This document shows positions 4,111 to 64,000 of a DNA stretch of 64,000 bases, one piece after another. Source of the stretch: Spinacia oleracea (Eukaryota > Streptophyta > Magnoliopsida > Caryophyllales > Amaranthaceae); assembly GCF_020520425.1 (NCBI RefSeq), contig NC_079491.1:35145449-35209448 (forward strand), in the 5' to 3' direction. Position 1 is the first letter of the stretch. Each line of letters opens with the position of its first letter. A program made the translations under genes and the position numbers. The notes under the pieces were generated by a model. It had not been told where the DNA came from. It did not search any database and saw only the letters and a program-made list of their open reading frames with translations.

Positions 4111-5346
4111 AACTATGGACGTGAGCCTCGTTTTAATAGTCTTTAGGAGTCGTCATTCAGTTTTACAACTACATTGAACAAAACTGCTGACAAAACCTAA
4201 TGATCAATTTACCACGACATAAATAGCAAATCCTTGTTTATACTTTTCGTGTGACCTTGAAAACTATATTCCTATCACTACGTACAATTGTACAAATCAT
4301 TAGCATAAACTAATGGAGAAGGTTACCCTTTTTTCCCCTTCTTATAATTAATTTGAGAAATTTATACGTACTATAAGAACATAAGTGATTATTTTGTCAC
4401 GTTACCCACTGAGTCACGAAGACACGAAACATGTCAAATGTCATTAAACAACATCTATTAACCACAAAACTACACAATTGTTATCGCATACTTGTATGAT
4501 TGAATATGTTTTTCACATATCATTATCATCTTAACAAAATAATTAACATTGTATTATTATTTTATTGTTATTATTATGTGAGACGTCAGTACGTTGTCCG
4601 TTGTCCGTTGTTTCACATACTAATGAACTAAAATAAGTACAATTTGTATGAAACAAATGGCTAGAATTCGGGTTCATTTTGAATTTTTGATTAATTAATT
4701 AATCGTATAGTACCAAAAAAACACAAGAGCCAAGATTCTTTTATGCGTTTGACTCATGATTTAATTTAGAAAAAAAATAGATGAATAAAACCAAAATCCA
4801 GGGAATTATAAAAATATGACATACGAGTGCAAATCAATTTATGCTAGAAAGGAATATATAGATGACATTGAATTCTTTGGTCTTGGGGGATTATCAATTT
4901 GACCATGTAAAAAAAATTATCAATTCGACGTACTAATATGCTAATCTGACTAAAGTATTAAGTGAAAATTAATTTAGGACCCGTTCTACTAAAATAATTT
5001 AGCATTTCAATAGTAACTAAATAAAAAACTTGTGATATTAGGAAAACGTGAAAGTGAAAGAGTATATGAAAAAGTATAAATTCAAAGTTGTGTAAAATAT
5101 ATTCAAATGAACTAAAATTGCATATTACAATACAAAGTTAAGGATTATAGTTGTGTACTTGTATATAGATCGATCTAACAAAGTTAACCAAACCCGAATG
5201 ATTTACCTAAGACTAATTTTCAAAAAGACCCGACCATAACTGAGTTAGTAAAATGCAACATAGTTTGAATTGAGTATAATTTTGATAAATGGACTTCTAA
5301 TGTTAGTCTACTTACCATGTATTAGTATTTTAATTAACATTTGTAC
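4111..5346. other. AT-rich intergenic DNA, no gene seen
   Basis: Low-complexity AT-rich sequence without a credible reading frame or identifiable repeat termini. Positions 5339-5346 are the left copy of the TSD of the following hAT MITE. Confidence 0.5.
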
Positions 5347-26974: not shown

Positions 26975-29900
26975 TCAAAGCCATTCTCCAATATGCTTGA
27001 TTCCCATAGCTGCAGTGTGCGAGTTGTGCTTCGCCTGCGGCAGAGGTTTAGTCAATGGATCTGATATGTTGTCATCAGTTCCAATTTTGCTTATCTCGAC
27101 TTCTTTTCTTTCAAAGAACTCTCGTAGAAGGTGAAATCTACGAAGTACATGCTTGACTCTCTGGTGGTGTCTAGGCTCCTTTGCCTGTGCAATAGCTCCG
27201 TTATTGTCACAATACAGGGCTATTGGTCCTTTAATGGAGGGGACTACACCAAGTTCACCTATGAACTTCCTTAGCCATATAGTTTCCTTTGCTGCTTCAT
27301 GTGCAGCAATGTACTCCGCTTCAGTTGTAGAATCCGCAATGGTGCTTTGCTTAGCACTTTTCCAGCTTACTGCTCCTCCGTTGAGGCAGAAGACAAACCC
27401 AGACTGTGATCTGAAATCATCTTTGTCGGTTTGGAAACTTGCGTCCGTATAGCCTTTAACAATTAATTCATCATCTCCACCATAGACCAGGAAGTCATCT
27501 TTGTGCCTTTTCAGGTACTTCAGAATATTCTTGGCAGCAGTCCAATGCGCCTCTCCTGGGTCTGACTGGTATCTGCTCGTAGCACTGAGTGCGTACGCAA
27601 CATCCGGGCGTGTACATATCATAGCATACATTATTGAACCAATCAATGATGCATATGGAATCCCATTCATTCGTCTACGCTCATCAAGTGTTTTTGGGCA
27701 CTGAGTCTTGCTTAGAGTCATTCCATGAGACATGGGTAGGTAGCCTCGCTTGGAGTCCGCCATTTTGAACCTATCAAGCACCTTATTGATATAAGTGCAT
27801 TGGCTAAGTCCAATCATCCTTTTAGATCTATCTGTGTAAATCTTGATGCCCAATATGTACTGTGCTTCTCCTAGATCTTTCATCGAAAAACATTTCCCAA
27901 GCCAAATCTTGACAGAGTTCAACATAGGAATGTCATTTCCGATAAGTAATATGTCGTCGACATATAATACTAGGAAAGCAATTTTGCTCCCACTGACCTT
28001 CTTGTATACACAAGATTCGTCTGCGTTCTTGATGAAACCAAAGTCACTGACTGCTTCATCAAAACGTATATTCCAGCTCCTGGATGCCTGCTTCAATCCG
28101 TAGATTGACTTCTTTAGCTTGCATACCTTTTTAGCATTCTTTGGATCCTCAAAACCTTCAGGCTGTGTCATAAACACAGTTTCTGTTAAAACGCCGTTTA
28201 AGAAAGCAGTTTTGACATCCATCTGCCATATTTCGTAATCGTAATATGCAGCGATTGCTAACATTATCCGAATAGACTTTAGCATTGCAACTGGTGAAAA
28301 GGTTTCATCGTAATCCACACCGTGGACTTGCCTGTAACCTTTTGCAACCAATCTAGCTTTGAAAACTTCAAGTTTCCCATCCTTGTCCTTTTTCAGTTTG
28401 AAAACCCATTTGCTTCCAATGGCTTGGTAGCCATCTGGCAAATCGACCAAATCCCATACTTGGTTTTCAGACATGGAGTCTAATTCAGATTGCATGGCTT
28501 CTTGCCATTGCTTGGAGCTAGGGCTCGTCATAGCTTGTTTGTAAGTCGCAGGTTCATCACTTTCAAGTAATAGAACGTCATAGCTCTCGTTCGTCAAAAT
28601 ACCTAAGTACCTTTCCGGTTGAGATCTATATCTTTGCGATCTACGCGGGGTAACATTTCTAGTTTGACCATGATTCTCACCAGATTTTTCTAAAGATCTC
28701 TGAGTTTCATCCTGAATGTCATCTTGAGCATTCTCTAGAGTTTGTTGTTCGACTCGAATTTCTTCGAGGTCTACTTTTCTCCCACTTGTCATTTTGGAAA
28801 TGTGATCTTTCTCCAAAAAGACACCATCTCGAGCAACAAACACTTTGTTCTCAGATGTATCGTAGAAGTAATACCCCTTTGTTTCCTTTGGATAGCCCAC
28901 AAGGATACATTTGTCAGATTTTGGATGAAGTTTGTCTGAAATTAATCGTTTGACGTATACTTCACATCCCGAAATCTTAAGAAAAGACACATTTGGAGGC
29001 TTTCCAAACCATAATTCGTATGGAGTTTTTTCGACAGCTTTAGACGGAGCTCTATTTATAGTGAGTGCAGCTGTATTTAGTGCATGTCCCCAAAATTCTA
29101 ATGGAAGTTTGGCCTGACCCATCATTGACCTGACCATGTCTAGCAAGGTTCTGTTCCTCCGTTCCGACACACCGTTCCATTGTGGTGTTCCAGGAGGAGT
29201 CAATTCTGATAGAATTCCACATTCTTTCAGATGGTCATCAAATTCATAGCTCAGATATTCACCGCCTCTATCAGACCGCAGTGCCTTAATCTTCTTGCCT
29301 AATTGATTCTCTACTTCACTCTGAAATTCCTTGAATTTGTCAAAGGATTCAGACTTATGCTTCATTAGGTAGACATAACCATACCTACTGAAGTCATCAG
29401 TGAAAGTGATAAAGTAGCTGAAACCACCTCTAGCATTTGTACTCATTGGTCCACATACATCTGTATGGATTAAACCCAATAGTTCATTTGCTCTTTCTCC
29501 AACTTTAGAGAAAGGTTGCTTTGTCATTTTGCCAAGTAAACATAATTCGCATTTACCATAATCCTCTAAGTCAAATGGTTCTAGAATTCCTTCCTTTTGA
29601 AGTATTTCTAAGCGTTTCAAGTTTATATGGCCTAATCGACAATGCCACAGATAGGTGAGATCTGAATCATCCTTTTTGGCCTTTTTGGTATTTATGTTAT
29701 ATACTTGTTTGTCGTGATCTAATAAATAAAGTCCATTGACTAATCTAGCAGATCCATAAAACATCTCTTTAAAATAAAACGAATAACTATTGTCTTTTAT
29801 TAAAAAGGAAAATCCCTTAGCATCTAAGCAAGAAACTGAAATGATGTTTTTAGTAAGACTTGGAACATGGAAACATTCTTCCAGTTCCAAAACTAGCCCG

Positions 29901-30940
29901 GAGGGCAACGACAAATAGTAAGTTCCTACAGCTAATGCAGCAATCCGTGCTCCATTTCCCACTCGTAGGTCGACTTCACCCTTGCTTAACTTTCTACTTC
30001 TTCTTAGTCCCTGTGGATTGGAACATAAGTGTGAGCCACAACCTGTATCTAATACCCAAGAAGTTGAATTAGCAAGTATACAGTCTATAACGAAAATACC
30101 TGAAGATGGAACGACTGTTCCGTTCTTCTGATCTTCCTTTAGCTTCAAGCAATCTCTCTTCCAATTCCCCTTCTTCTTGCAGTAGAAGCATTCGGATTCA
30201 GAAGTGGGTTGACTGACCTTCCTCTTTACAGATTTGGCGCCAGTTTGCTTAGTTGGGCTGGCCTTGTTGCCACCTTTCTTAGCATTCCTCTTCTTTCCAG
30301 ATTTCTTGAACTTGCCCCCACGCACCATAAGCACATCCTGCTTATCACTTTTGAGCGTCTTTTCAGCGGTCTTTAGCATACCGTGAAGCTCAGTGAGCGT
30401 TTTGTCCAGACTATTCATACTGTAGTTCAGTTTGAACTGATCATACCCGCTATGAAGAGAATGGAGGATGGTGTCTATAGCCATTTCCTGAGAAAATTGC
30501 TGATCCAGCCGACTCATATTCTCAATGAGTCCAATCATTTTGAGAACATGTGGACTTACGGGCTCGCCTTTCTTAAGCTTGGTCTCAAGAATTTGCCTAT
30601 GAGTCTCGAATCTTTCGACTCGAGCCAGATCTTGGAACATGTTCTTCAACTCACTGATGATTGTGAAAGCATCTGAGTTGATGAACGTTTTCTGCAGACC
30701 CGCACTCATGGTGGCGAGCATTAGACATTTCACATCCTTGTTGGCATCAATCCAACGATTGAGGGCTGCCTGAGTGACCCCGTCACCTGCGGCTTCGGGC
30801 ATCGCCTCTTCTAGGACATACTCCTTTTCTTCCTGCATAAGAACTATTTGCAAGTTCCTTTGCCAGTCAAGGAAGTTTTTCCCGTTCAACTTCTCCTTTT
30901 CGAGAATTGATCGAATGTTGAATGAATTGTTGTTTGCCAT
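26975..30940 (-). CDS. Copia gag-pol polyprotein, intact
   Basis: A single frame of 1321 residues from ATG 30940 (MANNNSFNIRSILEKEKL); an in-frame ATG 39 bases upstream at 30979 is possible, but the internal start matches the gag N-terminus better. Domains in order: UBN2 gag; zinc knuckle CFYCKKKGNWKRDC (His replaced by Asn at 30164-30166); aspartic protease WVLDTGCGSHLC; integrase with the HCRLGH and CELC zinc-binding pairs, then HTDVCGP, LRSDRGGEY and the GTPQWNGVSERRNRT block; reverse transcriptase with KARLVAKGYRQ, QMDVKTAFLNG and YVDDILL; RNase H with YTDASFQTDKDD and STTEAEYIA. The order protease-integrase-RT-RNase H defines Ty1/copia. All catalytic signatures seem present; only the knuckle residue is abnormal. 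Confidence 0.97.
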   Translation of the reverse strand: MANNNSFNIRSILEKEKLNGKNFLDWQRNLQIVLMQEEKEYVLEEAMPEAAGDGVTQAALNRWIDANKDVKCLMLATMSAGLQKTFINSDAFTIISELKNMFQDLARVERFETHRQILETKLKKGEPVSPHVLKMIGLIENMSRLDQQFSQEMAIDTILHSLHSGYDQFKLNYSMNSLDKTLTELHGMLKTAEKTLKSDKQDVLMVRGGKFKKSGKKRNAKKGGNKASPTKQTGAKSVKRKVSQPTSESECFYCKKKGNWKRDCLKLKEDQKNGTVVPSSGIFVIDCILANSTSWVLDTGCGSHLCSNPQGLRRSRKLSKGEVDLRVGNGARIAALAVGTYYLSLPSGLVLELEECFHVPSLTKNIISVSCLDAKGFSFLIKDNSYSFYFKEMFYGSARLVNGLYLLDHDKQVYNINTKKAKKDDSDLTYLWHCRLGHINLKRLEILQKEGILEPFDLEDYGKCELCLLGKMTKQPFSKVGERANELLGLIHTDVCGPMSTNARGGFSYFITFTDDFSRYGYVYLMKHKSESFDKFKEFQSEVENQLGKKIKALRSDRGGEYLSYEFDDHLKECGILSELTPPGTPQWNGVSERRNRTLLDMVRSMMGQAKLPLEFWGHALNTAALTINRAPSKAVEKTPYELWFGKPPNVSFLKISGCEVYVKRLISDKLHPKSDKCILVGYPKETKGYYFYDTSENKVFVARDGVFLEKDHISKMTSGRKVDLEEIRVEQQTLENAQDDIQDETQRSLEKSGENHGQTRNVTPRRSQRYRSQPERYLGILTNESYDVLLLESDEPATYKQAMTSPSSKQWQEAMQSELDSMSENQVWDLVDLPDGYQAIGSKWVFKLKKDKDGKLEVFKARLVAKGYRQVHGVDYDETFSPVAMLKSIRIMLAIAAYYDYEIWQMDVKTAFLNGVLTETVFMTQPEGFEDPKNAKKVCKLKKSIYGLKQASRSWNIRFDEAVSDFGFIKNADESCVYKKVSGSKIAFLVLYVDDILLIGNDIPMLNSVKIWLGKCFSMKDLGEAQYILGIKIYTDRSKRMIGLSQCTYINKVLDRFKMADSKRGYLPMSHGMTLSKTQCPKTLDERRRMNGIPYASLIGSIMYAMICTRPDVAYALSATSRYQSDPGEAHWTAAKNILKYLKRHKDDFLVYGGDDELIVKGYTDASFQTDKDDFRSQSGFVFCLNGGAVSWKSAKQSTIADSTTEAEYIAAHEAAKETIWLRKFIGELGVVPSIKGPIALYCDNNGAIAQAKEPRHHQRVKHVLRRFHLLREFFERKEVEISKIGTDDNISDPLTKPLPQAKHNSHTAAMGIKHIGEWL

Positions 30941-32369
30941 ATTAAAAACTACAATTGAAATAAACAAATAAATAACCATTCACAGTTTCTCTTAATAAAC
31001 TTAAATTCTAGCATACATGCATAATTCAATGTTTATTAAGCATTTTATTCAAGTTATGTGTTCCGGCAGGTGTGAATAAAATGATTTAAAGATCCTAAAA
31101 TCATTGAAGAACTAAGCACAGTTTGTCGACTTAATCCTAAAACATCTTAGGTAAGCAAAAGCCTTTTGCTAATAGTCTAGAAACTATTCTTGGTTGATAG
31201 GTACGTCTAAGAACTTATTAGGTAAACCTATCGATTTTTCCACGACATAAAAGGACTCCTTACTTATATCGTTGAGTTTCACCAAAACTAACATGTACTC
31301 ACAATTATTTGTGTACCTTGCCCCTTTAGGACCAATAAGTAACACCTCGCTGAGCGAAAACTATTACTAGATTGATGTAAAGGATATCCAAGCAAGTGTA
31401 TATTTTGGCATGACACCTTATAACTCAATTTTTAAGTTTGGAACTTAAGGCTCTTACTATGTTGGTTAGATTTTAAGTGAACTAAAATCCTTAATCATGC
31501 AACATAATCAAGCCACAATCTCATGCATAATTAAGACATATTTAAAGCAATAAATAACTTAAAGCATGCATAAGATAAATGTGATCTAGTATGGCCCGAC
31601 TTCATCTTGAAGCTTTAACTTCAAAGTCCGTCTCGAAAATCTCCGTGGGAGGCACCATTTTCTTCAAATAGGATAAGCTATAATTAAAACTAATTACAAC
31701 TATTTGATGGTACGCAGACCATATTTGAATTGAAAAACGACTTTGGTATTTTAGACCAATTACATTCAAATTAATGGTACGCAGACCATATTTTCTATCC
31801 TATTTGGGCCATACTAGTCACTTCATAACCTGCAAAACAGTACATTCACCCATTCATTATCATGAATGGCCCACATAGCTGGTTAGTAAAACACATTATG
31901 CATCACGTAAACATTTGCAGCAATTAATCAAGGGCACCAATAATCTACCAATTATTCAGTCCTTATTAATTCTAATCAAGTTGTTTTAACCTTAAGGATT
32001 TGTAGACCTAATCAAGAGTTTATGACTAAAAGCGCTCCCACTTAAACCAATAAATTCATATGCTTTACTAATTTTAAACATAAAAATGTATTTCTAGTCT
32101 AACCGGAAACATACAAATTTAATTAAAATTTAAAGCTCATATAAATTTATAATTGAATCCAAAAATTTAATTTAATTTCAGTCGTGTTTAAATTAATTCA
32201 AGATTTAAATTTTAGTAAAATAATTAGAATAAATAAAATTTATTATAATTATAATATTCAAAATTAAAATCCAAGAAAATAATTTAAATTATTAATTTTA
32301 AAATTAATTAAAATTACGTAAACTGAAAATTTCAAATTAAAATTTCAAAACGATCTAATCGTAACGCAA

Positions 32370-37063: not shown

Positions 37064-37448
37064 CCTTTCTTTGTCAACTTCTTGGGTATTAAATACAGGT
37101 TGTGGCCCACACTTATGTTCCAATCCACAGGGACTAAGAATAAGTATAAGTTTAAGCAAGGGTGAAGTCGACCTACGAGTGGGAAATGGAGCAAGGATTG
37201 CTGCATTAGCTGTAGGACTTATTATTTGTCGTTGCCCTCTAGGCTAGTTTTGGAACTGGAAGAATGTTTCCATGTTCCAAGTATTACTAAAAACATCATT
37301 TCTGTTCTTGCTTAGATGCTAAGGGATTTAACTTTGAAATAAAAGACAATAGTTGCTCATTTTATTTTAAAGAGATGTTTTATGGATCTTCTAAATTAGT
37401 CAATGGCCTTTATGTGCTAGATCATGACAAACAAATTTATAACATAAA

Positions 37449-37809
37449 GGAAAATTTGATAATAAAAGTCCCAACTATCGTCACTTCACTTTAAAAGGTC
37501 ACAACTTTTGATTATTCTAGAGCTGTATCAACTTTGAGGTGTGTTTTCCCAAAATGCCCCTTTAGCTTAATTAAACTATTAATTAAGTTGATTTATGCAT
37601 ATCATACTATTTTATTAACTCATTTAATTAAAAATATGATTATTGCATGAGATATACGAGTCTTAATTAAGTTATATAGCACTTAATTTTAATTAAGGGA
37701 CCATTTTTGGAAAGGACTCGCTATAGTTGGGACCACTCAGAGATAATCAAAAGTTAGGATCTTTTAAAGTAAATCGACCATAGTTGGGACCGATAATATC
37801 AAGTTTTCC
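37449..37809. mobile_element. Mutator-type MITE, 361 bp
   Basis: Left end GGAAAATTTGATAATAAAAG and complement of the right end GGAAAACTTGATATTATCGG begin a long imperfect inverted repeat of roughly 70 bases. The exact 9-bp duplication TAACATAAA (37440-37448, 37810-37818) is the size typical of Mutator-like elements. No coding sequence. Confidence 0.9.
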
Positions 37810-38459
37810 TAACATAAATGCTAAAAAGGCCAAAATAAAATATTCAAGATCTCACGTATATGTTGCATTGTCGATTAGGCCTTGTTAACATGAACCACTA
37901 GAAGAAAAAAGCTCAAGTGCGGGCTCATTTTAAGGGGTTAAGTGCGGGCTTTTACATGCGCAGCACATGGCTTGCCCGCACTTGATGTTTCTCAAGTGCT
38001 GCCAAAATATTGGCAGCACTTGATACTTCAAGTGCTGCCAATTTACAAAATGAGCCCGCACTTGACAAATTTGGTGCTGCCAATTTTGCAATATGAGCCC
38101 GCACTTGACAAACTTTGTGCTGCCAATTTTGAAAATGAGCCCGCACTTGACAAATTTTGTGCTGTCAATTTTTGAAATTAGCCCGCACTTGACATAAAAA
38201 TGGGCAGCACAAGCATAAAAAAGAGCCGCACTTGATATATAAATGAGCCGCAATTGATCTAGAAATTTGTTATATAACTGATATCCCTGCTACATATATT
38301 ATACAATTAGACCACGCCCACTAGTTAACCTCCATGCATTACATAAAAAAAGTATCCAATTATATAGATAATTAAATTGAATAGTATACAATTATAAATA
38401 TAAAAATCGATTACATTACAATCCTATGAAAAACTAGCATCTATAATCTAAGATTCACT

Positions 38460-38590
38460 ACAAAAGAAAATATCAAAGACAATAAATGGTAATGAACTTT
38501 GCCAACTTTTCTCGAACTTCATTTATCTACTCAATGGTAAAAGGCTGCTCCCTCGGATTGTTGAATACCTAAAGAAGATCGATCATCGAG
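38460..38590 (-). other. Possible third captured exon of unknown origin
   Basis: On the minus strand, after a TTTAG acceptor, the frame reads VFNNPREQPFTIE, a stop, then INEVREKLAKFITIYCL. The codon-like flow and charged helix look protein-derived, but I do not recognise the family. It is broken by one TAG. Confidence 0.3.
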
Positions 38591-39489
38591 AAAAAAAAAT
38601 ATGTTAGTTATATTATAAATATTGTATGGTACATTAAAGTAAGACATAATTTGCTCACAACAATGAAATAATGAACCTTATAATAATAAAAATGGTTCAT
38701 TTCTCTCCTAACTTTCAACCAATGAACCTAAATAAGTATTTTAAACCTTTGGATGTTTTATATACTTAGTTTAATGTTTCATACACTCATTCTCACCTAC
38801 TTTGGTCACGTTATGCACATTTAAGGCTCGTTTGTTCATTATAGTTCAAATTTTGACTAAAATGACTTATTTCGCTCCTAACTTTCAACTAATGAACTTA
38901 AATAAGTATTTGAAACCATTTACATGTTCATTAGACTTAGTATAACATTCAAAGACTTATTGTGGAACCGGGCATAGTCTACACTCCCCTTGTACCATCA
39001 ATGTATGATCCTTTCTCCTAACACTGTCTATTCATTTCCCTGCATTAACTTAAAGATACAAGAATGATTGTTTGCTTTCATATAGGAGTACTTAGCATGA
39101 GGTTTAGTAATTTGACAGTATCGATATTACTTAATTGCAACTTCAGAATTAGTGTTAATATCTGGTGGTTGATACACTTGCAAGTTAATAATTTGTGCTG
39201 GGATTCTTTACTATGTCTGCTAAAAAAAGACACCAAAGATAAAGAACGAATCAAAACAGAAAACCTGTTTTTACTCTTCTACTGAGATTCTTCTTCTATC
39301 ACACTCCCCTCTCCTTTTCCTGCTTTTCTCTTTCTTGGGTAAAGAAGGTTTCAGGTCTGAGAAATTCCTATTCAGTAACCATTTTAAGTCCTTTTCTGTG
39401 TTCATACAAATACCTCACAACGTTTAACCCCTCCCCCTATTAGCAAATACAAATACAAATATTTCAAAGACTTATTCTCACCTACTTCG

Positions 39490-40040
39490 GTCAACCCCTA
39501 TTAGCAAGAATTTCAGGAGCAACGTAGTCTGGGCTCCCATAGGTTGTATGTAGCAAGCCATCACTCTAGAAAAACAAAATGAAAAAACTACCAGAGATTC
39601 AAAAGCTGAATACAGTAAAAGAGACTTTTACTCTAGTATTTTCTATACATACCCGAAATGCTGGGGTAGTGCACTAAGGCCAAAGTCGGATACTTTATGT
39701 TTCCTTTTCCGTCTACAAGGATATTCTCTAGCTGCAAATTTGAGAAGAAAATGTCAGAAGACCATATAATAGCAATGTCATACTCAAGCATCTGCTCCAA
39801 CAAAAACCTTCATAGTTGACAGTTAAATAAATACACATACACAAATAAAAATTCTAATCACAACTCACAAGAGAAGAGTAAATTGCAATAACATCAATTT
39901 CACTATTGTGATTGTTTATCCAGTACCTAACCTTAAGGTCTCGGTGAAAGACACCCTGTCATGACAATAATTCATACAGTCAATTAGTTGTTGAATAAGC
40001 CTTCGACCTTCCTTCTCTGAGAGTTTCCTTCAGGGTGCCT
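39490..40040 (-). pseudogene. Captured CIPK/SnRK3-type kinase exon fragments
   Basis: Three exon-like pieces read in gene order on the minus strand. About 40040-39926: a helix and catalytic loop (RRLIQQLIDCMNYCHDR, then VFHRDLK after a one-base deletion), ending at a GT. About 39733-39655: LENILVDGKGNIK followed, after another one-base deletion, by SDFGLSALPQHFR and a GTATG donor. About 39565-39490: after a TTTCTAG acceptor, SDGLLHTTYGSPDYVAPEIL. These are kinase subdomains VIb to VIII in collinear order; SDFGLSALPQHFR and the DGLLHTT activation loop are typical of CBL-interacting protein kinases. The ATP-binding lobe and the NAF/FISL regulatory part are absent. Introns are retained, so capture was from DNA, not mRNA. 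Confidence 0.82.
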
Positions 40041-41090
40041 ATAAAATTATTAGTTGCTTCAGTAATAGAAAACAATTTAAAGTTGAAAATATACATTGGT
40101 TGGGGTGTCAGTTTGAGTTAGAGTGATACTTTATGTGTAGAAATTACTTATAATTTTACCAGACAATACTACTCCATATAAAATTGTACATACTCTAGGA
40201 CCATGTATATATTTGTTTTTCTTGCTAAGATCTGCAATAAGTCACCAAAGTTTGATACTTTGATTGCTCGGTCTACTTTTGATATGGCTCAAAACTGATT
40301 CTTTCTTCTAAAGACCGTGATTTGAACAAACCAAACCCGTGCACAAATGTAAATTATATCATACATCAAAGAGCTAGCACAATGCAAGTGATGGTCCAAA
40401 TATATATGATCCCGTTTTTTAAAATGAATATGATCAAGTTCTGACTGAAAATGAGCATCTATATGTTCGTTCTGCATGAAGTGATAAGGGTCAAACTTCA
40501 AATATGGTGCATATACATTTAGAACACCATGCACACATTACTCGTTGGAGCACCGTCTATCGAATCATAAACTGGTCTAATCCATATGAGCCTAGATACT
40601 ATCGGCCCACGCCCATTGCGAACCCCATCCAAACCCCATCCAAAGAAACCAAAAATAACAAAATAAAGAATGGATAAACAAGAATTCTACTTTACATTAT
40701 AAAAATAGATTTAGATTCCTAAGATCTCAACGTTTTTATTACTATAATTCTAAAATCTGATGCAGTTTGTAAGTTGTAGTATAAATGGGTCCCATTCAAT
40801 AACTCACACCATCTTTCACTTTTCCTGTCATTATGATTTGTATGCTCTTTAATTATTTATTTGGATGGTAGCCATGCCATATAAAGCTTCCCCAGGTAGG
40901 ACATTTCAGTTTACACCAATAAGTTCAAAGAGTATTTGAGATAGCAATGCATATTCGACGTGATATCCTGCTAAGTTTCAACAATTTACATTTCAAAAGA
41001 AAAAAGTTCTTCACAGAAGTTCAACAATAACATCACATTATTAAAGCAACATATTGGTAAACATAGATATGGAAAAACCAGAATATATAC

Positions 41091-41191
41091 CCGGAGCTGG
41101 CCAGACATTTGGCCCATAAAATGGCTTCTCTACTTCAGGATCATCCTCAAGTACTTCAACACCAATACAATACCCCCTCCTTGTAATCTCC
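41091..41191 (-). pseudogene. Captured exon fragment, probably a 2-oxoglutarate/Fe(II) dioxygenase
   Basis: One exon-like piece with AG acceptor (GCTGTAG) and GT donor reads ITRRGYCIGVEVLEDDPEVE followed by KPFYGPNVWPAP on the minus strand. The KPFYGPNVWP block before a GW-containing region is typical of plant 2-oxoglutarate-dependent dioxygenases of the flavanone-hydroxylase-like fold. The iron-binding histidines lie further downstream in such proteins and are not seen. The assignment rests on one exon. Confidence 0.5.
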
Positions 41192-43179
41192 TACAGCTAG
41201 AAGATGGACAATTAGTACAATATCTGAATTGTACAAAGCAACTTTAGTTAGAGTTAAGCAATCAATTCTCAGTTAACATCATCATTCATCATTATCATTA
41301 CCCCCATTGCCTCAATTCTCAGTTAACTCGTAAGGTGATTCCTTGTAATACCCTATTCAGTTTATTAATGTATTCGGAAAACACGTAACACTGAGCTAAT
41401 GCAGAATATCATGTTCAGCGGTTATTAGGTATTATATATAATCAGACACCATATAGAAAGTCCAACTGATTCTCAATTTCCGATGCCCCCATATAACATA
41501 CCTATTTGTAATCTCCCACAACTGTTAGAAACAATACATAAGCTAAAACAGTACAAAAGTCACTCCCCTAGTACATCCCTATAAACTGTGATGCTTAGAC
41601 TCAGATATGAAGTTAGGGTTTGTAAATTGGGGGTTTTGATTTTATTCAAATTCAACTTAATTAATGAAGGGAAATAGGAAATTACCGATAGATTGGGTAG
41701 CAAGGATGACAAACCCTCAGCCAATAGCCTCGGCCACCGTTGGCGGTGAAGGGTAGCGACGAGAGAAGAGCAGACGAGAAAGAGCATTGCTTCGTCATAG
41801 ACAGGCTATTTTTACTTGCATTCAAGACGTATTAGGTGGTTTTGGACAAAAATTAGGGCAACGCGATAACGAAAAAACTAAGACATAAGCAGCCGTGCCG
41901 CCGGCAAGAGAAATGGCGGTGGCAGGTTATCGACGGAGAAGCAGCAGAGGGGAGAAAGAGAGGGTTTGAGGTGAAAAGTGAATGAGATTCATTTGGCTGA
42001 AAGAGAGAGAAAGCGCGAAAGGAGAATGTCACTTTTGTGTGGCTCATTTGTAAAATGAGCCCGCACTTGAGTTTGAAGCCCGCACTTGAACTTAAGTGCT
42101 GCCAATTTTCTAAAATGAGCCCGCACTTGTAAAAATATTTTTTTTTTATTTTTTTTAATCTTCTCAAGTGCTGCCAATTTACTAAATGAGCCGCACTTGA
42201 AGGGAAGCACATGACGATTTTTCTACTAGTGAACCGCATGGAAAAGCTTCAGAAAGAAGGAATTATAAAACCATTTGACTTAGAGGATTTGGTTAATGCA
42301 AATCATGTTTAATTGGAAAAATGACAAAACAACCTTTCTCTAAAGTTAGAGAAAGAGTAAGTTATCTATTAGGACTAAACTACACAAATGTGTGCGGCCC
42401 AATGAGTTCAAATCCTAGAGGTGGTTTCAGCTACTTTATAACTTTCACTGATGACTTCAATAAATATGGTATGTCTACCTAATGATGCATAAGTCTGAAT
42501 CCTTTACCAAATTCAAAGAATTTCAGAGTGAAGTAGAGAATCAACTAGTCAAGAAGATTAAAGCACTGCAGTCTGATAAAGGCGATGCATATTTGAGCTA
42601 TGAATTTGATGACTATCTGAAAGATTGTGGAATATTGTCAAAATTGACTCCTCTTGGAACACCACAATCGAATGGTGTGTCAGATTGGAGGAATAAAACC
42701 TTGCTTAAAATGGTTCGATCAATGATGGGTCAGGTCAAACTTCCAATAGAATTTTAGGGACATGCACTAAACATAGCAGCACTCACACTAAATAGAGGTC
42801 TGTCAAAAGCTATCGAAAAAACTCCACGTGAGTTATGGACTAGAAAGCCTCCAAAAGTGTCTTTTCTTAAGATTTAGGGTTGTGAAGTATACGTCAAAAG
42901 ATCAATTTCTGACAAACTTCAACCGAAATCTGACAAATGTATCCTTGTGGGCTACCCAAAGGAAACAAAGGAGTATTACTTATACAATACATCTGAGAAC
43001 AAGGTGTTTGCTGCTCGAGATGATATCTTTTTGGAAAGACGACACATTTCCAAAATGACAAGTGGGAGAAAAGTAGACCTTAAAAAACTTCGAGTCGAAC
43101 AACAAACTCTTGAGAATGATCAAAATGATATCCAGGTTGAAACTCAGAGGACTTTAGAAGTGTCTGGTGAGGATCAAGA

Positions 43180-60704: not shown

Positions 60705-63599
60705 TATGCTATATTAAAAGTGAGTAAATCAATATGCTGTGGTGATGACAAATGTTTCGCCTCTTTTCTAATTAGAAAAATATTATTGATTTTCGTTATA
60801 AATCCTAAAGATTCTGTTGAGAATAAACATCCTAAATAAGTTTTCCGGCTCTTTTCCTTCCTAATTAAACAAATGAGTATATACTTCAGTTCAAAACCGT
60901 ATTACGAAGTACTCCATATGTTTTAGCTTATAGTTCAACTAGCTTTATATGCTACGAGATTATGTAATGAAAATTAATCACCACAAATATACAATAGACA
61001 TATTATGAAAAATTAGACAATTTCTCTATTTAAAAACATCTAAATAGTGAAACAATGTAATATGCATGACCTTATCAAACGATAAATCTAATCATAGTAC
61101 TAAAAAAAAATTAAACATAAAACAACATGTTACACTTTTTTTTTTTTTAATTTTGCTCCACTACTTGCCTAGCCACATGCACTCCTCCTCCTAATCGATT
61201 TGCAGCATATAGTAACATTATAAGAGTATATGTTCTAGATTGAAATCTTTAAATATTGGTGGAGGTAGCACCCACGAAAAAAACTTTGTGTTTAGAAGGT
61301 TGAGAATATTTTTTCCATGTAAACTATTTCCTTTTTGATTTCAAATACAATATGAGCTAATTATTATACGGAGTAGCCTTTTTATTGAGGGAAACATTAT
61401 TATAACCTTATTAATACGGAGTATATGTTTCACCAAATTACTTATAAACCAAAATTTGCATAAAAAATTATCTATTATAAAAAACTAAGTGACCATATAT
61501 ACCCGATTCCCCGCACACTCAATTTGACAACTCTCCTGAGGAAAGGCTTAAGGGTCATAACTCATAAGGCCCAACACTTGTAACCTATTTAAGGTAGTCA
61601 ATAAGTCAAGCCCACTAAAAAGATTGATAGTAGATTCCCTTTTGGTTGTTTTACTTAGCGAGGAAGAAATTAAGGAAATTGTCTTGATGGGTAATTGGAT
61701 ATTGCTGTATTAATATATTTGACATGGTTTTTTATACTCGTGACTTGTGGAGCACAAAATTAATTATCAATATTACATTAGAAGTTCCACCTTAACACCC
61801 AAAACAGGCCATAACAGCTAATTAGGTAGAGCTCTGCTATCCTTTTTTCCATTACTGATTGACTTTATTAGAATCAAGAGTATATCTATTTTTATTTTGT
61901 TTGTTTGTGCACTGGTGTAGGAGAACAATATACTTAATTACATGTACCAGCGTGCCTCCACCCTCTAGGATAAACGGTAATGGTGTTTTTGAGGATGGAT
62001 GAGATATTATGTTTATTTGATTTAGAGTAATATTACATTTATGTGTGGCAATTATCAATTAGGCCAAATTCAGTAAATTAAATGGAAAAAAGTCAATTGA
62101 GTAATTTTAGTTTTCCATATTAAGTTCTTTAGATATGGTAATTGTACGTAGTAATTTTGGAAATATTATTTGATTTTTTATGTCAATAATTGACTTTTAT
62201 TGAGAGATTTAAACCAGAGGAATTATCGTGAGATTGACAATATCATTGCAGCCTTGATTTTGACGTTTTTTTATTGATTAATTTTGATTTTGTTGACTTA
62301 ATTCTTTCATGTTTGCTGCGGCCTATGGAGATTAAACAATTGTGTAAGTTAGGATTTGCATTTCAATTAAATTGTGAAGTTGCCGAGGGTAATATAGTTG
62401 TTTTGATTGGGGACACCAAAAATGGTGTTACCGAAATGTCTCTTCCCTCTTGGCTTATATAATAGAGATACTTCGTAACTTATTACAAAGTATGTTTTCA
62501 AAAAAATTATTTCCAAACTAAAGAATATCTTGTAGAATTTATGGTTTAGTAAAGTACATAGTAAACATAATTGGTATTACTACGACATATCTCTATTCTG
62601 TAAGAGAAATCCTGAGGCCATTTTAGTAAATATCCTTTTGGCGTCCCTGTATAGAATAGACTATAATGCCCCTTAGTAAGTTCGCTATTTTACTAAATGA
62701 ATTAAAAAAAACTAAATTGTAATTATTCAAAAAACTAATAATTTAATGCCATATTGCAAATAAGGAAATAAAATCTTTCATATTTTAGTACATGAAAAAC
62801 ATTTGCAATTTGACAGCCAAAAGTGAACATCAAATTTAAAATAATGTTCAACCATCTTAAATTTTGTTGAAAACTTCTTCAAAAGCCGGTTTCAAGAAGA
62901 TTCATTTATATACGGAAGTAGATTTAAAGTTTTATTTCTTATTAATGTTAGTGCATTCTTACTTTCACTAAATATTTCATTACGAAATATTAGTCGTGTT
63001 TCTAAGTACTTCATTAAATTTTATTTTAAATACATACTTTACAATAATATCGCGTGCAAACTGCTACTTTAGGCATTAATTTTTTGTCATTGCAATTAAA
63101 TTTATTCAACTTCGTAACTTATTTTTATGTGATATTTATATATTGTGTAATTTTATGTAATTCTGCTTTTATTCTAAAATATTGGTATATGATGACGCAG
63201 TACCATTATCCATCCTTTATGCATTTATTTCCTAGCGACATACGAGCTCAATCGATTAGTAATTATGATGTTTTCAATTTGGTAAATGTGGTAAATATTT
63301 TTTGGATGTCGAAGTAAATGTTTAATATTAGTCAATTTTATTATGTTAATTTTCTATAACATAACTTTTTTGTCTTTTTTTGTATTTTTTGGTAGGGTGA
63401 GGGCGTACAATATACTATTTTCTCGCCTCATGTTGAAAAGTTCATCAAAAGGTTTCAAGAGGGTTCATTTATATACGGAAGTTTTTTCTTTTGATGATCA
63501 AACTTTGTATACTATTTTTGTTATTATTATTGATTAGTTGTAATAAAACAATTTTAATTTATGTATAATCTCGCACGCATCGCGTGCATATAAGACTAG
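60701..63599 (+). mobile_element. Helitron candidate, about 2.9 kb, non-autonomous
   Basis: The 5' end TCTATATGCTATATTAAAAG follows an A, and the 3' end has a GC-rich hairpin GCACGCATCGCGTGC (63572-63586) some ten bases before CTAG at 63596-63599, followed by T. These are the three diagnostic Helitron marks. The interior is AT-rich with no helicase gene or other recognised gene; small frames such as 62274-62462 show no family features. The left border is less certain because TC-A sites abound in the adjoining TCTA array, and the element could be shorter. Confidence 0.5.
62467..62860 (+). repeat. Direct repeat, copy 1
   Basis: Starts at ATACTTCGTA and is almost identical to 63612-64000 over about 390 bases, for example at GGCGTCCCTGTATAGAATAG. 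Offset between copies is about 1146 bp. Confidence 0.9.
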
Positions 63600-63611: not shown

Positions 63612-64000
63612 TACTTCGTACCACATGCATATTACAAAGTATGTTTTCAAAAGAATTATTTCCAAACTAAAGAATATCTTGTATAATTTATGTTTTAGTA
63701 AAGTACATAGTAAACATTAGTTGGTATTACTACGACATATCTCTATTATGTAAGAGAAATCCTGAGGTCATTTTAGTAAATACCCTTTTGGCGTCCCTGT
63801 ATAGAATAGGTTATAATGCCCCTTACTAAGTTCACTATTTAACTAAATTAATTAATAAAACTGAATTGTAATCATTCAAAAAACTAATAATTTAATGCCA
63901 TATTACAAATAAGGAAATAAAGTCTTTCATATTTTAGTACATTAAAAACATTTGCAAATTGACAGCCAAAAGTGAACATCAAATTTAAAATAATGTTCAA
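63612..64000 (+). repeat. Direct repeat, copy 2, cut by the window end
   Basis: Second copy of 62467-62860, starting 13 bases past the proposed Helitron 3' end and still matching at the last base of the window. Only scattered substitutions and small indels separate the copies. Confidence 0.9.

Follow-up and report, generated by a model that had tools for sequence, protein, structure and literature searches.

A spinach CACTA transposon that appears to carry genomic pieces of three unrelated host genes

What kind of DNA joins broken, exon-like pieces of unrelated plant genes between two CACTA-type termini, and where did those pieces come from? The question arises in a 64-kb window (the whole stretch of DNA analyzed, C5:35145449-35209448) of the 894-Mb genome of spinach, Spinacia oleracea. 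A sequence-only reading of this window had proposed that positions 37896-42231 form a single non-autonomous element combining pieces of a CIPK-type kinase gene and a dioxygenase gene. We found the donor loci of both pieces, with their introns, on other chromosomes. We conclude, with a probability of about 0.92, that the element is a Pack-CACTA, i.e., a CACTA transposon without transposase in which genomic DNA (exons and introns) of three unrelated host genes lies between CACTA-family ends. The element and its ends are as follows (positions are those of the window).

37896-42231, no strand: element of 4336 bp, read as a complete non-autonomous Pack-CACTA, flanked by AAC/AAC
37896-37909, plus strand: left terminal inverted repeat, CACTAGAAGAAAAA
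42218-42231, minus strand: right terminal inverted repeat, CACTAGTAGAAAAA
37896-38961, no strand: left end of CACTA-family type, comprising subterminal repeats and an incomplete tandem repeat array (unit about 170 bp)
41605-42231, minus strand: CACTA-family right (5') end, with subterminal repeats at 42033-42231 and a GC-richer leader at about 41690-42030

The CACTA ends, AAC duplication and dense subterminal repeats claimed from the sequence alone all held. With the right terminus read on the reverse strand, 13 of the 14 terminal bases are identical and both termini start with CACTA; the target site duplication AAC is present on both flanks. The subterminal regions are dense in direct and inverted repeats (repeat table), and all 14 occurrences of the motif TCAAGTGC in the 64 kb fall inside the element. 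We considered all CACTA/TAGTG pairs 0.5-15 kb apart within the window (n = 554). Matching 3-bp flanks were found in seven of them, including 37896-42231, which is the only pair to combine matching flanks with an end match of at least 10 bases (13/14). Eight other pairs reached an end match of 11/14, none with matching flanks.

The host of the insertion is a copia retrotransposon, of which an intact copy (open frame 26975-30979) is located in the same window, about 8 kb from the element. When the flanks were joined minus one AAC, their joint aligned gap-free with the intact copy (at about 29.6 kb), while joining them with both AAC left a 3-base gap there. The intact copia copy is a related empty site for the insertion. 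The copia element that hosts the insertion also contains a 363-bp palindromic stretch (37448-37810) resembling a miniature inverted-repeat transposable element (MITE), found as a self-inverted match.

Further copies with the same ends, a prospect raised by the sequence-only reading, do exist: two more full-length copies were identified on the same chromosome (C5, positions 50.42 and 110.39 Mb), with TAT and AAT as their own 3-bp duplications. The element has transposed as a unit. Pairwise Kimura two-parameter (K2P) distances among the three copies are 0.0081, 0.0105, and 0.0107 (4333-4336 sites), and at an assumed substitution rate of 7e-9 per site per year the copies would have diverged roughly 0.6-0.8 million years ago.

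The ends belong to a large CACTA family. The left 1066 bases are 88-96% identical to at least dozens of places (best 40 of 2155 candidates), and a 27-bp pattern from the right end has 302 genome-wide matches at up to one mismatch, against none for the reversed control pattern. One family member (L051) is 4.4 kb long and has no Pfam transposase. The tandem repeat of about 170-171 bp is present in many copies in family members (e.g., L043 and L047) and in fewer than two copies in the element (38689-38945); a quinoa CACTA element is reported to carry a 171-bp satellite (PMC8978399). The right end of the element is more diverged than the left from all seven family members compared. We had considered this difference in age as proof that two elements fused, and dropped it: among the seven members themselves the right end is more diverged in 20 of 21 pairs (the exception being L044-L045), so the pattern is common in the family and nothing special to this element.

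Between the family ends, a genome search identified fragments of three host genes whose donors lie on three chromosomes.

38958-39425, plus strand: aspartyl-protease piece, an exon end (38958-39002) and the larger part of the intron after it; 91% identical (BLAST) to its donor, C4:182542300-182542747
39495-40949, minus strand: CIPK gene piece with introns kept; donor C3:21460396-21461701, K2P 0.087
40152-40231, minus strand: kinase exon ...KTNIYMVLEYV; 8-bp insertion at 40178-40185, with AT in place of GT at the splice donor after 40152
39932-40038, minus strand: kinase exon ...YCHDR.VFHRDLK; one base deleted from a G run at about 39957/39956, as also in the C4 element described below; GT donor kept
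39653-39731, minus strand: kinase exon LENILVDGKGNIK.SDFGLSALPQHF; one base missing at about 39697/39696, and two more from the splice donor
39495-39565, minus strand: truncated kinase exon SDGLLHTTYGSPDYVAPEILANRG
40976-41501, minus strand: piece of a 2-oxoglutarate-Fe(II) (2OG-Fe(II)) dioxygenase gene, with a short MITE-like remnant inside; donor C2:69104756-69105626
41091-41190, minus strand: dioxygenase exon ...GYCIGVEVLEDDPEVEKPFYGPNVWPAPG; splice borders kept, one base added to a G run within 41174-41178

The sequence-only reading had counted two, perhaps three, minus-strand genes. Kinase and dioxygenase stand. The third piece is the aspartyl protease, which had been missed and whose sense strand is the plus strand, opposite to the other two; a third minus-strand gene near 41690-41790 was rejected, as this stretch, like the whole of 41605-42231, is CACTA-family DNA.

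The kinase piece comprises four exons with their introns and is cut inside an exon at 39495. Its exon-joined peptide (X at lesions and unread stretches) gave the protein match to a kinase that had been anticipated, with CIPK23 (expectation value, E, 1e-36) and CIPK24 (2e-30) found in PDB. The assignment to kinase subdomains VIb-VIII is incomplete, since a fourth exon (40231-40152) lies before those subdomains. Both single-base deletions noted earlier are present, and to them must be added the 8-bp insertion, the GT-to-AT change, and the 2-bp splice-donor loss. The C3 donor locus matches the Pkinase (8e-32) and NAF (2.5e-8) domains and is therefore a CIPK gene; the captured part stops short of NAF. 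All seven candidates of the donor search were scored. Apart from the C3 donor, the three copies of the element, and the C4 element, they comprised two short matches (40 and 62 bp); no source closer than the C3 donor was found among them.

The dioxygenase piece is 90% identical to the C2 donor over 40976-41277 and 82% over 41331-41501. Taken alone it is weak: DIOX_N in Pfam scored E 0.17, and the PDB match tropC (E 0.75) came second, after an unrelated antibody chain (0.2). The C2 donor locus matches DIOX_N at 1.4e-26 and 2OG-FeII_Oxy weakly (0.0018, below its cut-off). The best 40 of 67 candidates consisted of the three copies of the element, short repeat matches, and the C2 donor itself, and held no source closer than that donor. 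An intron of the donor dioxygenase (L042:4922-5321) contains a stretch of about 400 bp with inverted ends. A short remnant of it seemingly persists in the element at 41277-41315, and also matches many places in the genome.

For the protease piece, the C4 donor stretch falls between the best TAXi_N stretch (2.9e-27) and the TAXi_C match (1.7e-9) of its locus. All four candidates were scored, namely the three element copies and the donor at 182.5 Mb on C4, with no closer source among them.

Because introns are retained, the host pieces were captured at the DNA level, and a retroposed copy is ruled out. The sequence-only reading had listed fragments at intact parental positions as a point against it; intact parents are what capture predicts, and finding the CIPK and dioxygenase parents with introns therefore supports the reading.

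The pieces differ from their donors to unequal degrees: 106 of 1289 sites in the kinase piece, 43 of 464 in the dioxygenase piece, and 21 of 446 in the protease piece (11 of 425 in a second count without the indel-rich block 39060-39096). Protease and kinase divergence differ at p = 0.015 with this block and 2e-5 without it. With fewer differences to its donor, the protease piece is probably the more recent of the two, if the genes mutate at similar rates. Two small pieces lie between them.

39435-39446, minus strand: 12 bp lying apart from the main kinase fragment and repeating the bases at its edge (at 39496)
39458-39495, no strand: 38 bp of the tandem repeat that belongs to the CACTA family itself

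This filler looks like the product of template-switching repair synthesis or the seam of two joined elements. The host pieces may have been added at different times, as DNA and not via RNA, by either of these routes (element fusion or template-switching repair).

A second CACTA element with the same kinase cargo bears on how the pieces were acquired. Located at C4:67525990-67532887 (L040:2690-9587), it is a second Pack-CACTA, 6.9 kb long, is flanked by AAT/AAT, has clearly different ends, and carries the part of the kinase fragment corresponding to 39622-40145 at 91% identity. Relative to the donor, the two elements share the 1-bp deletion at about 39957/39956 and two amino-acid changes (Gly to Arg before KL and Gly to Cys before V/M); the C4 element is without the second deletion (about 39697/39696) and the splice-donor loss of the third exon. 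Joint descent of cargo and end would give equal divergence, and the ends differ more than the cargo: K2P between the elements is 0.153 for the left end (97 of 703 sites) and 0.076 for the kinase cargo (37 of 515; Fisher p = 3e-4). At a little under even odds, one kinase cargo may have moved between two CACTA backbones and later been joined by the younger protease piece, so that Pack-CACTA cargo would be layered through mutual DNA exchange and not by gene capture alone.

The strongest competitor, that the two elements captured the kinase piece independently from the same donor with no exchange between backbones, is the less likely account, though a serious one. The three-way site pattern is near star-like, with 14 sites common to both elements against the donor and 16 and 13 in the other groupings, and the shared deletion sits in a G run, both of which suit independent capture. 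Yet one short exon has the shared deletion together with both shared amino-acid-changing differences, and for two separate captures to have struck the same stretch of the same gene would be coincidental. At the first changed site CIPK23 and CIPK24 have Gly, as does the donor. At the second they have Ala where the donor has Gly, and the change there was presumably from Gly to Cys.

At the right end, GC content is 43-49% over about 41600-42100, compared with 25-39% in the element interior, and conservation at 41621-41680 averages 92-98% over 18 aligned loci (14 distinct places). This conserved core belongs to a short block (41611-41700) near the 5' end whose minus strand contains AAACCCTAA; neighboring stretches are less alike. 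One further feature is inferred here.

41685-41684, minus strand: putative first intron donor GT

The GC-richer right end, with its conserved stretch and the GT at 41685, is reminiscent of the Spm end that contains promoter and leader. Downstream of this leader, both the dioxygenase and the kinase piece lie in sense orientation. The right end might thus supply a leader and splice donor, and a chimeric RNA running through the dioxygenase and kinase exons could start there, with the protease piece lying antisense within it. By analogy with soybean Tgm-Express1, such a chimeric RNA is possible, and transcripts of the element, should there be any, might give rise to small RNAs targeting the donor genes. 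Chimeric transcripts are seen in some Pack-CACTA elements but do not define the class.

That the element is instead a newly assembled chimeric gene making a functional or regulatory protein is very unlikely. Exons of two genes do lie in the same orientation downstream of a CACTA leader, with several splice borders intact. However, three of the four kinase exons have frame-breaking changes, one splice donor has gone from GT to AT, and the dioxygenase exon has its 1-bp insertion. The kinase lesions and the dioxygenase insertion are present in all three copies (base 40181 inside the 8-bp insertion varies among them); the lesions are therefore older than the spread of the copies, and no working kinase is expected, as had been argued from the sequence alone. 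Kinase exons are also about as diverged from the donor as introns (K2P 0.076 over 332 sites and 0.091 over 957), so there is no sign that the kinase pieces were kept for coding and no constraint is seen on the element side. The element most likely encodes no working protein.

Movement would depend on a CACTA transposase made elsewhere and acting in trans. Transposase_21 was absent from the element in a six-frame Pfam scan (E up to 1), while its matches are abundant genome-wide (at least 150, the best 150 of 1375 candidates), most without stops and in long open frames. Many of these listed loci are alike in score and in having an open frame of 1092 codons, which would fit a recent spread of one CACTA lineage.

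Several points weigh against reading the element as a Pack-CACTA with three host genes. No autonomous partner with these ends was found within 15 kb when 149 of the 150 listed Transposase_21 matches were compared with the 178 listed family-end places; the nearest listed matches are 17 and 30 kb from listed family ends, and neither the scanned non-repeat parts of L040 and L044 nor L051 held such a partner. The donor genes were identified by domain matches and exons and not as full gene models. No source was identified for the gaps at 39426-39434, 39447-39457, 40542-40631 (inside the kinase piece, with no match in the C3 donor), 40950-40975, and 41502-41604. Finally, the six-frame scan of the raw element, with stops as X, returned no Pfam family at E up to 1, so that Pfam alone cannot pick up pieces this short and broken. 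The alternative that these broken gene parts are ordinary pseudogenes or segmental duplications lying by chance between CACTA-like words is scarcely credible, because the same three-gene combination recurs at three places, in each case between exact ends and with a separate duplication, and a related empty site exists. Elsewhere in the window, a direct repeat (62481-62851 and 63630-64000, 94% identical) is cut by the window end.

Among known systems, Pack-MULEs are likewise mobile elements with gene fragments, and have Mutator ends and 9-bp duplications. The CACTA ends and 3-bp duplications of the spinach element set it apart from them, and rule out a Helitron or Pack-MULE identity. Pack-CACTA elements of Arabidopsis were reportedly described by Catoni et al. 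in 2019. According to two reports, these elements are similar in having CACTA ends, in being non-autonomous, and in carrying captured coding DNA, in part from multiple loci; they differ in end sequence and family (PMC8903248, PMC13317346), and the spinach case adds three traced donors and a second backbone that shares cargo. Soybean Tgm-Express1, a 5.7-kb CACTA element for which chimeric spliced RNAs were shown, also holds genomic fragments of unrelated host genes with introns and splice sites kept, although from five other genes (PMC1947982). In Chenopodium, CACTA elements with captured gene fragments belong to a family with tandem repeat arrays of about 171 bp; unlike the spinach element they are described with a transposase domain (PMC8978399). 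CIPK cargo in a CACTA element was not encountered in the literature surveyed by titles and abstract openings, with most subscription journals outside that survey. Pack-CACTA elements with pieces of several loci are already known, and the spinach element clearly adds a new one to them. As an instance of gene-fragment capture it is documented unusually well, since a single genome supplies its ends, the empty site, three copies, and the donors of all three pieces; the unequal ages of its pieces, together with the kinase cargo in a second element, offer a concrete, datable test of how CACTA elements gain, and perhaps trade, host DNA.

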